Below are positions 39,386 to 43,384 of a DNA stretch of 64,000 nt, one piece after another. A program made the translations under genes and the position numbers. Within the stretch, counting starts at the first letter, position 1. Each line of letters opens with the position of its first letter. The notes beneath the pieces are model-generated. The model made no database searches, was not told the origin of the DNA, and saw nothing but the letters and a program-made list of their open reading frames with translations. Source of the stretch: Biscogniauxia marginata (lineage: Eukaryota > Ascomycota > Sordariomycetes > Xylariales > Xylariaceae). The stretch is from contig MU404097.1 in assembly GCA_022695795.1 (NCBI GenBank), positions 186,001 to 250,000 on the forward strand. Reading direction: 5' to 3'.

Positions 39386-41450
39386 ATGACGTTTGCAACA
39401 CCTAACCGACAATATTCTCGGCATATGCTTCGTATTTTCTGAAAATTACGGATCGAAAACTTATCTCTTCTTATTGCACTTTCAGGTGGGATATCAAAGA
39501 AATTATAGCGAACGTTGTACTTGGACCAACACTAAGACAGTCACGATACAGCGACCAAGGCGATTGGTGACATCTTTGGCTTTGATATTAGGGTTGTACA
39601 CCATTGCCCACCTTCACTCAAAATACGATAACATACCAAAGGTCCCTGGTTTCGCCTATGTGACGAGCAGTTTCGACTGGTCGAGACTACCACAGAAATA
39701 TCCTATTCCGGCTTCAGAGCTGACAGCACTACCAAAGGGCAAACCTCGAAAACTGCCTGCGGTCCAGTTTCCTTTCCGCGCCAATAACAAGGTGCGACAC
39801 CAAGCCCTCGAGTATCGGCGGGAGCAAGTGAAGGATGCATTTGTCAAGAGCTGGTCGAGCTACAAGATTTACGCGTGGTTGTTCGACGAGCTAGCGCCTG
39901 TCTCTGGTGAAGGTAAAAATACATTTGGGGGGTGGGCAGCTACTCTCGTCGATTCCTTAGACACACTATGGATAATGGGCTTAAAGGATGAGTTTTACAA
40001 CTCCACGGCCATCGTAGCGACTATCGACTGGTCTGATACAAAAGAGTCAGCTTGCAACTTTTTTGAAACGACCATACGCCATCTCGGGGGCTTGTTAAGC
40101 GCCTACGATTTAAGCCAGGAATCCGTGCTTCTCCGCAAAGCCATCGAACTTGGCGATATGTTATTTATGGCTTTCGATACGCCGAACCGCATGCCGCCAT
40201 TCTGGCTAGACTTCAACAAAGCAAAGGAAGGGCTCCTGAGACCCGGCACACATGATCCATCTGCGTCTGTTGCGTCCTCGTCACTGGAGTTCACCAGGCT
40301 TGCTCAATTGACAGGAGATAATAAATATTACGATGCCGTCGACAGGATAACGAGACTTCTAGACCAGACCCAGAATTCTACAAAGCTACCTGGAATGTGG
40401 CCAACATTCTTCGACATGGAAAATCTTGTATTCGACCAGGAGAACGGCTTCACACTTGGGGCTCTGGCAGACTCTTTATACGAGCTACTTCCAAAGACGT
40501 ACGCCCTCTTGGGGGGCCTCGAGCCAGTATACGAAAAGCTTTACCGTGATTATATGGAAGCGGTGACAAAATACCTTATGTTTAGGCCAATGGTTCCAGA
40601 TAATGCGGATATACTATTCACTGGCAATGCCTTCGTAAATGAAGATAGCTCGGTCGACTTGCAGCCCGAGGGTCAGCACTTAGCATGCTTCGCTGGTGGT
40701 AAGTTTCTATTAGGTAAATTTGACAGTATTTGTGGCCATAGATGTTGATTGAGCCAGGAACTTTCCAATTCCTTCTGATATCAGCGTTGTGCATAAAGTA
40801 TCAAGACTCGATATTCTAGCAGCAACTAATTTTGGCCTCGCCTAGGCATGTTCGGTCTTGGTGGCAAACTCTTCGGTATCAAAGAGCATGTTCATATCGG
40901 CGAGAAGATTACACGAGGATGTTTCTGGGCCTACGACGCTATGAATACTGGTATTATGCCTGAGATATTTGGCCTTATCCCATGTCATTCATTGAAGGCT
41001 TGTGCGTGGGATGAAGGAGAGTGGTTGGCCAAAGGCGACCAGTCCCTCAAGAAAGGATTTCAAAACGCCCGAGACCCTCGATACCTACTACGTCCGGAAG
41101 CAATCGAAAGCATCTTCCTTATGTATCGCATGACCGGCAATCCAGACTACCAGGAGATGGCTTGGCGGATGTTCAAGTTTATCCGCAAAGCGACAGAGAC
41201 TGAGCTAGCGTTCTCGGGAATCGCGGACGTTACTGTCAGCGGTGGAAAGACGCAGAAAATAGACACAATGGAGGTAAGCATTAGTTTTAACTCAATATTC
41301 CGTTGACGAGACCTGGATACTAAATGTGAGAAGAGCTTCTGGCTTTCCGAGACTCTGAAATATTTTTATCTAATTTTCTCCCCACTGGAGCTGGTCAACT
41401 TAAATGAGTATGTGCTCAATACGGAGGCTCATCCCCTCAAGCGCCCTTGA
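39386..41450 (+). CDS. Glycosyl hydrolase family 47 alpha-1,2-mannosidase
   Basis: Type II membrane protein of the ER/Golgi that trims mannose from N-glycans. The preferred model has exons 39386-39431, 39541-40698, 40846-41273 and 41334-41450, about 582 residues. An N-terminal signal anchor ([14 protein letters not shown]) is followed by the GH47 domain: [76 protein letters not shown] and the C-terminal [16 protein letters not shown]. The final [10 protein letters not shown] has the calcium-coordinating Thr. The last two introns (40699-40845, 41274-41333) are well supported. The first exon is uncertain: the frame is open upstream to 39393 but has no ATG, so a small exon with the ATG at 39386 or 39425 and a GTATTT donor is inferred. 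Confidence 0.85.
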
Positions 41451-41880
41451 AGAGAATTCGACAGTATAAGAGGAGTCGACAGATCGACACCATAGCTTCG
41501 AGATTGCTTGCCCACATTCAAGCAAAGGGATATTGAAGTCAAAACAAAAGACACCGGGCAACTTACTTAAAAGTAAGCTGAAGTGAGGGATATGTCCCTC
41601 AAGAGACTATCCCACAATGTAATCAACTCCTATTTGTTATGAGTAAAGAACGCCTGCCGAGCTGATGGCCACGACCATCTCGGAGGCATTACCGACACAC
41701 AATGGTATAAAGAGAACATACACGTATTCAATTAAATGTTATAAAACAAAACACATAATAATCATGTAAATAAGTGAGTAAGTTTGTTATTTTATTAATA
41801 TTCACGAACTTAAACCTAAGCCGAGCCGCGAGTGCTTATTATTAACTAGTATAAGCCGGGGAAGGGCAAAAAGATTCAAT
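41451..41880. other. AT-rich spacer downstream of the GH47 gene
   Basis: GH47 3' flank and AT-rich DNA. No gene is seen. Its right end holds the tRNA terminator. Confidence 0.5.
41868..41872 (-). terminator. RNA polymerase III terminator of the tRNA-Ile gene
   Basis: Five T in a row on the minus strand, 8 bases beyond the 3' end of the tRNA. This is the normal Pol III stop signal and supports a transcribed gene. Confidence 0.6.
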
Positions 41881-42010
41881 GGTCAGTATGAGGGTCGAAC
41901 TCATGACCTTCGCATTATTAGTACGACTAGGAGAAGTTAGTAATTTTTAGAACGGCGAAATTACACCACTTGTTGTTACATACCGCTCTAACCAACTGAG
42001 CTAACCGACC
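41881..42010 (-). tRNA. tRNA-Ile(AAU) split by a 57-nt spliceosomal-type intron between positions 26 and 27
   Basis: On the minus strand, 42010-41984 plus 41926-41881 make a 73-nt cloverleaf with every stem paired. The acceptor is GGTCGGT/ACTGACC and the D arm is GCTC...GAGC. The anticodon arm is TCGTA-CTAATAA-TGCGA with anticodon AAT after T33. The variable loop is AGGTC, and the T arm is ATGAG-TTCGACC-CTCAT. The A and B boxes are canonical. The 57 nt between (41983-41927) start GTATGT, carry TACTAAC at 41942-41936 and end CCTAG, the exact pattern of a fungal spliceosomal intron. Ordinary eukaryotic tRNA introns sit at 37/38 and lack such signals. A T5 terminator follows. Whether the intron is removed, and how, cannot be seen; if it is not removed, the gene is dead. 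Confidence 0.85.
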
Positions 42011-43384
42011 GTTGATTAGGTCCATCCCTAATTGAGTGGACACATGGGATGGAGCCAAATTAAGATCCTCTATTATGTCCTTCCCAGTAGCTATCACTAC
42101 CACTGCCACTGCCACTGCCGCTGCCGCCGCGGACCCCAACGCCAATGCCGATGCCGTAATTGCCGCTTTGCTCTTTATATCAGCCTCTGCACCGGCACTC
42201 TCATTATCGCTACTATCATTATCGCACCTGTACTACTGTTGATGACACAACGTCTTAATTCTCAATACCGATGCCGACTACACCAACTGTCTCTATGTCT
42301 TGCCTGCTCTACTGTATTAAACGAGTCAGATATAATTGGTCATTAGACTGGATATTGCCAAGCTAATCCGCCGTGGTGTTAGTAACCATCTACATTAAAG
42401 AAGGAGCAATAATAAACCGCTGACACAGATAAAGAAAAGAACACAGCGAGGTACCAATAGCGCTAACAGGAATCGAACCTGAACTCGCCGATAGTCCAAC
42501 TATAACCGGTTCATGCCGAGAAAGAAGACCAGAGAGGAAAGGTCCATGTGGATCATGTAACATTCTGGGGTCCAGACCATCGGTCGTAACCTATGTTCAG
42601 CTTCTCGCAGAATGAGTACTTACACGAACAACCCCAATCGTCCTACCACCGCATGCCGTTTAAGGAAACCTAGAAAGTTGCATACCTGACTGGCGGTAAC
42701 TGTAAGCCCACGGGTTGCCGTGATGGGCTCGCACAGATCAGTATGGCATAATGAATCTAGGGAGTGGTGTGAGAGTTTGTACGCCACTGGGATTTTGAAC
42801 CCCTCAAGATGTGAACGTTACAGTACAGACGGTGTTCTAAACACTTACTTGCCCCGCAGTGCAAGAAACATAATCTGAGCACAATACAAAGTATATTAAT
42901 AGTTGTTTAGCGTGAAGTTCAAGCTCATCGTTCGCGCATCTTACTGCAAGGTAACCATATCTAACTGTATTAGGATACTCTTTCTTCTACCTACCTACAT
43001 AGTATCTAGTAACGCGAGGATCTTCCCGTGATAGGCCCTGGAAAGTTTCACCCATCTAGGTGGATGGCCATTAGCAAGCCAATCATCGAATATACTATAC
43101 CCCCTGCGACGGGCCAGACACTATGATTGACAGGGCATGGTCTACTCCTCCCAGAAACGTGTTTGTGAGCGGATATGGCGTAATTGGCTCTTCACAGGAT
43201 AAAGTTCCGGCGGTTGGCGGAGTAATACAGGCCTCAAAGGCCTCAAAATGCGCATCTTCACTGCTTCGGTATTTAAACCAGCAGCCACCCTAACCCAGGA
43301 GTTACGAAAAGAGGACTCGATGCCGCTTGACTCTCTAGCGTGACAGTATCGGTGTTGACTTGCAGGGCCAAGTGATAGCCAAGA
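42011..43384. other. Spacer with tRNA-like relics and the OPT promoter
   Basis: Next to the tRNA is a (TGCCAC/TGCCGC)-type trinucleotide-biased patch (42095-42160). At 42455-42535 (minus) and 42783-42860 (minus) are sequences with T-arm-like blocks (CAGGTTCGATTCCTG; GGGGTTCAAAATCCC) but no full cloverleaf. The rest is unremarkable and ends in the OPT promoter. Confidence 0.4.
42455..42535 (-). other. Degenerate tRNA-like sequence (possible relic)
   Basis: The minus strand has a good T arm (CAGG-TTCGATT-CCTG) and a 5-bp anticodon-like stem CCGGT/ATCGG. That stem encloses a 12-nt rather than a 7-nt loop, and the acceptor stem does not pair. It is best read as a decayed tRNA or tRNA-derived element. 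Confidence 0.3.

Follow-up and report, generated by a model that had tools for sequence, protein, structure and literature searches.

Can an intron of the kind found in mRNA precursors interrupt a tRNA gene, and is such an intron removed by the spliceosome? The question is raised by a tRNA-Ile(AAU) gene of 130 bp in the window analysed here, a stretch of 64 kb (C43:186001-250000) from an assembly of 45.3 Mb and 229 contigs of Biscogniauxia marginata (Xylariales), which lives in wood. Direct reading placed the gene on the minus strand at 42010-41881 and showed it to be split between tRNA positions 26 and 27 by a 57-nt insert. Exon 1 (41984..42010, minus strand, as are all features of the gene) has 27 nt for positions 1-26 because the D loop has 9 nt, and it contains the A box, TAGCTCAGTTGG (42003-41992). 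The insert (41927..41983) begins with the donor GTATGT (41978..41983), contains the branch-site string TTACTAAC (TACTAAC at 41936..41942, with the branch A at 41937 and 10 nt from there to the intron end) and ends in TAG. Exon 2 (41881..41926, 46 nt, positions 27-72) comprises the anticodon arm with AAT, the T arm and the 3' strand of the acceptor stem, and the B box lies within it at about 41902-41892. Joined, the exons are 73 nt long and cover positions 1-72; the discriminator A73 lies outside them, at 41880, directly after exon 2. Direct reading also found TTTTT, the likely Pol III terminator, 7 nt beyond A73 (41868..41872). The gene is flanked on one side by an alpha-mannosidase gene, the match to which ends at 41447, and on the other by an open reading frame starting at 43379, which by eye we take to be an OPT-type transporter. 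The mannosidase reading frame shares 96% identity with a B. marginata protein, and the chitin synthase of the window shares 97% with proteins from Biscogniauxia sp. FL1348 and B. mediterranea.

The edges of the insert were fixed by a second gene. When the 130 bases were compared with the whole assembly, the matches were the Ile locus itself and C45:37152-37224, which has exactly these 73 nt without interruption (exon 1 corresponds to C45:37152-37178, and exon 2 is likewise identical). Because of this copy, the edges are set apart from a one-base ambiguity, and only one register gives GT-AG ends. The spliced 73 nt fold as tRNA-Ile(AAU) in ARAGORN. A preliminary description of this DNA had placed a 57-nt insert at 41983-41927 between positions 26 and 27 and had read its signals as GTATGT, TACTAAC with the branch A 10 nt before the end, and TAG; the direct reading, the fold and the intronless copy bear out each of these points, and one of 100,000 letter shuffles had signals as good. 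The search that it proposed for other tRNA-Ile(AAU) genes turned up this one intact intronless copy. A chance origin of the insert was ruled out by the identical uninterrupted gene together with the shuffles.

The interruption hides the gene from annotation programs. A default ARAGORN scan of the 64-kb window reported no tRNA, and Rfam gave no match at gathering threshold anywhere in the window, so that a group I or group II self-splicing intron was rejected as well. With its 57 nt, the insert falls below the size of group II introns and of most group I introns; small, degenerate group I introns with lengths of 56-81 nt have been described. When introns were allowed, ARAGORN miscalled the Ile gene as a tRNA-Val(AAC) with a 48-nt intron. 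Both Pol III boxes are intact, and with the insert at 26/27 they lie 90 nt apart, compared with 33 nt in the uninterrupted tRNA.

Further cases were sought across the assembly. An Rfam tRNA search gave 54 matches with 63 of 1528 candidates scored, and queries taken from the genome's own tRNAs added the locus L098 and other broken copies, some but not all of the full-length, low-identity matches being inspected. Because 63 of 1528 candidates were scored and later queries added genes, the tRNA inventory is incomplete. Among the broken copies inspected, a GT-AG insert was present in L098 only; L100 and L101 are decayed elongator Met genes, and L099, L102 and L103 are 3' fragments. L099 (C2:605155) is the 3' end of a tRNA-iMet followed by CCA and TATA, whereas L102 (C73:207726) and L103 (C2:222797) are 3' ends of tRNA-Leu followed by CCA and TATA and by CTA and TATA, respectively. 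No 5' half lies near any of the three, which resemble tRNA ends that were retroposed or primer-binding sites that were extended.

A pattern that combined a branch site, AG and a B box was not enriched over reversed controls (12 hits vs. 19, and 68 vs. 115 in a second scan). Seven loci taken from the hits included one tRNA gene, tRNA-Trp (L110, from the second scan of 68 hits), and one further hit was L059, a Lys gene already known from the Rfam search. The remaining hits were judged by eye from the string, and several were ordinary Glu or Ala tRNA genes. A query made up of tRNAs for Phe, Trp, Asn and Pro from other organisms had no match; as the real Trp gene escaped it too, this result is uninformative. 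The Rfam search, the queries with the genome's own tRNAs and this query, all of them limited, showed no nuclear tRNA-Phe or tRNA-Asn; these genes may have been missed, or they may also have unusual introns. Exact-pattern scans of prokaryote and viral collections returned no relatives, as expected for a fungal gene.

Two tRNA-Lys(CUU) genes, L057 and L059, were detected by the Rfam search with bodies broken in the T arm. Both are interrupted between positions 52 and 53, L057 by 58 nt (GTAAGT...CAG) and L059 by 62 nt (GTAAGT...AAG). With the inserts removed, 72 of 72 exon bases are identical to those of the intronless genes L005 and L006, and the spliced gene was recognised as tRNA-Lys(ctt) by ARAGORN. 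Since the last intron G takes the place of G52, GGTTCGACCC is preserved and the B box is readable with the intron in place. The intron of L057 (C4:104788-104848) also carries GCTTGCGGGTTCAATTC, a near copy of the exon string GGTTGCGGGTTCGACCC, which gives a second B-box-like string inside the intron. The relic L098 (C69:28083) is a third Lys gene with a GT-AG insert at 52/53; 10 of its 72 exon bases are changed, its splice signals are the poorest of all inserts scored, and its appearance is that of an unconstrained copy. Seven of the 10 changes are C-to-T or G-to-A, like those of repeat-induced point mutation.

A trailer of about 50 nt follows the tRNA in L005, L006, L057, L059 and L098 and consists of two hairpins and then a T run. 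Its first helix pairs the tRNA 3' end, GCATCGGG, with CCCGATGC, and its second hairpin has up to 7 bp and a stem that covaries. Over both helices, 5 of 15 pairs are changed on both sides, and 96% of cells are paired compared with at most 51% when slid. By eye, the trailer of L057 groups with that of the intronless L005 and the trailer of L059 with that of the relic L098, so either the intron was gained twice at one site or it was gained once and lost from some copies. The similarity of the introns fails to decide between the two: 29 of 59 aligned columns are identical in L057 and L059, and 539 of 1000 shuffles score as high. Since this is the level of chance, long maintenance of one ancestral intron is not supported.

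The tRNA-Trp(CCA) gene L110 shares its insertion site with the Ile gene. A 25-nt exon 1 is followed after position 26 by a 56-nt insert (GTAAGC...TTCTAAC...CAG), and downstream comes the Trp anticodon arm, whose loop holds an 11-nt intron; a run of eight T follows the gene. The B box, TGTTCGAATC, was found by eye, the B-box pattern having missed it. ARAGORN miscalled the unspliced gene as Pro; without the 56-nt insert it reported a tRNA-Trp(CCA) with the 11-nt anticodon-loop intron, a type of intron that it found in many genes of this genome. Searched together with the insert, the Trp gene matched only itself in the genome at E<=10. A pattern for the D-arm class of Trp, with one mismatch allowed, gave 11 strings and 10 in the reversed control; the 11 were three initiator Met, three Thr, one Arg, one Ala, two non-tRNA strings by eye and the intron-bearing Trp gene. 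An intronless tRNA-Trp was found neither in the genome search at E<=10 nor with the one-mismatch D-arm pattern, and splicing at 26/27 would therefore be needed for all UGG decoding. tRNA-Trp appears to be single-copy in the assembly. L110 could also be a decaying gene, because its spliced form contains one mismatch (A31-C39) and, in the acceptor stem, two G-U pairs; the true Trp gene would then be absent from the 229-contig draft or have a D arm that differs from the pattern by more than one base.

The U6 gene served as a control. In L060 (C41:126374-126530), a 57-nt intron (GTAAGT...CACTAAC...CAG) lies directly after ACAGAGAAGAT. One U6 gene was found with 47 of 2768 candidates scored; if it is the only one, splicing of the U6 Pol III transcript must work in this organism. 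A B-box-like string, TATTCGAATCC, is present inside the U6 intron, and in fission yeast U6 the B box lies inside the intron. No intron-like insert was seen by eye among 15 matches to 5S rRNA (47 of 2074 candidates scored). One 5S rRNA gene, L075 (C164:49369), has its 3' part replaced by unrelated sequence. An assembly artefact is an unlikely source of the Ile insert; the same pattern occurs at four further loci on four other contigs (C113, C4, C177, and C41).

The inserts were scored against a fungal consensus of donor GTRWGT, branch site RCTRAY 6-36 nt before the acceptor, and acceptor YAG (PMC5832005). The donor has no mismatch in Ile, both Lys genes and U6, and one mismatch in Trp (GTAAGC) and in the relic L098. 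The branch site is exact in Ile (ACTAAC at 10 nt) and U6 (ACTAAC at 11 nt), has one mismatch in Trp and both Lys genes, and has two in L098; in Trp and L059, the best RCTRAY match of the script is not the CTAAC site preferred by eye, each of the two sites having one mismatch. Acceptors are TAG in Ile and CAG in Trp, L057 and U6, the exception being AAG in L059, with one mismatch. In total, mismatches to the consensus number 0 in Ile and U6, 1 in L057, 2 in L059 and Trp, and 3 in L098, and the letter shuffles that matched as well, per 100,000, were 1 for Ile, 0 for U6, 9 for L057, 52 for L059, 33 for Trp and 624 for L098. The weak points are the branch site ATTAAT of L057, the acceptor of L059 and the donor and branch site of Trp. 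Overall, the inserts have the donor, branch site and acceptor of U2-type introns, with the mismatches listed. A strict donor-branch-acceptor string is not rare by itself: the 64-kb window contains five, the Ile insert included, and 10 Markov controls contained 0-4 (mean 2.2). What goes beyond chance is such a string exactly filling the gap in a perfect tRNA. The Pol III stop TTTT is absent from the Ile, Trp, two Lys and U6 introns, which is weak evidence and not significant, as 47-92% of shuffled inserts are also without it.

The preliminary description had left two readings open, that the spliceosome processes a tRNA precursor or that a recent intron or introner killed this copy of the Ile gene. 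Fungal introner-like elements are short spliceosomal introns, as the inserts would be, that were recently gained and form near-identical families. In contrast, the Ile, two Lys and U6 inserts each had only self-matches in the genome at E<=1, which was also the outcome of the proposed search for the Ile insert elsewhere, and the Trp insert matches only itself. Without a second copy, the inserts searched (those of Ile, Trp, the two Lys genes and U6) are therefore not recent introners, and an introner family was ruled out for these five. Pairwise comparison of five intron cores (Ile, two Lys, L098 and U6; n=10) gave one shuffle fraction below 0.05, that of L098 and U6 (0.016), which is not notable among ten tests; for the pair of good Lys introns the fraction was 0.539. 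Shared ancestry of the inserts was not supported by these comparisons.

A dead insertion, with the intronless copy doing the work, would fit the presence of the intact intronless tRNA-Ile(AAU) and the position of the third Lys insert in a decayed gene, L098. The lack of sister copies of the inserts searched argues against it, however, as do the unchanged exons of Ile and of two of the three Lys genes with inserts, the persistence of the Pol III boxes and T runs, and the insert in the only Trp gene found. We regard this reading as improbable; it is unlikely for Trp and Lys and is possible for Ile taken alone because one intact intronless copy exists. The part of the preliminary description that invoked a recent introner is set aside, and processing by the spliceosome is favoured by the Trp insert at 26/27, the two Lys inserts and U6.

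Another reading is that the tRNA endonuclease excises the inserts as ectopic introns, like those of Cyanidioschyzon merolae, and that their GT-AG ends are coincidental. Like the present inserts, introns described in C. merolae, the Guillardia theta nucleomorph and Crenarchaeota lie outside the anticodon loop (PMC3978253). In that account, however, they are treated as bulge-helix-bulge or endonuclease substrates, many G. theta ones being without a defined motif, and not as spliceosomal. A description of nucleomorph tRNA genes reports permuted tRNAs, and the parts of it considered here do not mention spliceosomal tRNA introns (PMC4494063). In a crude bulge-helix-bulge test (4-bp helix, 3-nt bulges), all four central pairs could be drawn for Ile, but only two for Trp and three for each Lys gene, with three for U6; the test decides nothing, because its two canonical-intron controls failed, with two of four pairs each. 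The donor, branch and acceptor signals in Ile, Trp, the two Lys genes and U6 are beyond those of the shuffles, and cutting by the endonuclease at these sites is very doubtful.

Transcription of the loci by Pol III is itself an inference, and the genome contains retroposed-looking tRNA 3' fragments that end in CCA (L099 and L102). Both would suit a reading in which the loci are Pol II non-coding transcripts or retroposed tRNA sequence, with introns spliced for other reasons. Against this, the tRNA bodies at these loci are complete, both Pol III boxes are present and T runs follow, no genomic CCA directly follows A73 of the Ile or Trp body, and the Lys trailer is common to intron-bearing and intronless Lys genes. 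Such an origin is exceedingly improbable. With the inserts removed, the Ile, Trp and Lys genes each have the cloverleaf, anticodon, A and B boxes and T run of a functional tRNA gene.

As judged from sequence, we assign a probability of roughly 0.83 to the reading that the 57 nt in the Ile gene are a true spliceosomal intron of the U2 type, that Pol III transcribes this tRNA gene, and that the fungus has several such cases. Pol III would be directed by the intact A and B boxes of the Ile gene and would stop at the T run, and the spliceosome would recognise GTATGT, the TACTAAC branch site and TAG, remove the 57 nt and join positions 26 and 27; the signals, the U6 precedent and the sibling genes are the basis for this proposal. 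While still unspliced, the Ile and Trp precursors did not form a cloverleaf in RNAfold, so the intron would have to leave before the RNA folds, or the RNA would have to be chaperoned. In tRNA-Trp, the 26/27 intron would be removed by the spliceosome and the 11-nt intron by the ordinary tRNA endonuclease. The inserts lie where the usual tRNA-cutting enzyme is not expected, and the spliceosome is therefore probably used. The predicted product of the intron-bearing genes is mature tRNA, and the spliceosome probably makes some of the tRNAs of this fungus.

The closest precedents are other small RNA genes. Like the tRNA genes described here, the U6 genes of Schizosaccharomyces pombe and other fungi are Pol III genes with an mRNA-type intron. 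The preliminary description had pointed to such introns in yeast U6, rightly so (PMC10484740), and the U6 gene of this genome has one too. The fission yeast intron is thought to have arisen by reverse splicing, and U6 is a part of the spliceosome whose intron lies near the catalytic nucleotides (PMC10484740). This is the usual explanation for the U6 intron, but it does not cover tRNAs because tRNAs are not spliceosome parts. Reverse splicing may nonetheless be a route by which tRNA introns were gained. Fungal U3 snoRNA genes, described as Pol III-transcribed, have introns of the form GTRWGT / RCTRAY / YAG, and paralogs with and without the intron occur in one genome (PMC5832005). The likeness to the present genes thus extends to a structured RNA, spliceosomal introns, and intron-bearing and intronless paralogs together. 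According to the same source, U3 and U6 are the only small structured RNAs in which frequent interruption by an intron is known, and tRNAs are not among them (PMC5832005, 2017). In the titles and abstracts of openly licensed literature that we searched, a spliceosomal intron was not reported for any tRNA gene; the known precedents are U6 and U3.

Canonical introns cut by the tRNA endonuclease also interrupt tRNA genes, and tRNA-Trp here has one. They lie at the eukaryotic position 37/38, whereas the inserts lie at 26/27 in Ile and Trp and at 52/53 in Lys and have GT-AG ends and a branch site. Eukaryotic tRNA genes are described as limited to one intron (PMC8450103), but the Trp gene has two.

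What began as a single unusual gene is now a group of tRNA genes, of which one is probably essential. For the lineage as a whole, it is rather likely from these gene structures that the spliceosome is an essential tRNA-processing enzyme, the sole Trp gene needing both the spliceosome at 26/27 and the tRNA endonuclease in the anticodon loop, with all UGG codons dependent on it. On this view, spliceosomal introns would have invaded tRNA families more than once: the exact 26/27 site was entered twice and, in Lys, the 52/53 site, and at both sites the A and B boxes stay readable. Genes of this kind can be missed or miscalled by tRNA finders, as ARAGORN did in calling Ile as Val and Trp as Pro. tRNA introns and mRNA introns are taught as separate systems, and a tRNA with a spliceosomal intron, or with both kinds, would break that division. 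It would open to test the action of the spliceosome on uncapped Pol III transcripts, the gain of introns in RNAs distant from the catalytic parts of the spliceosome, and the question whether splicing may become essential for decoding an amino acid.
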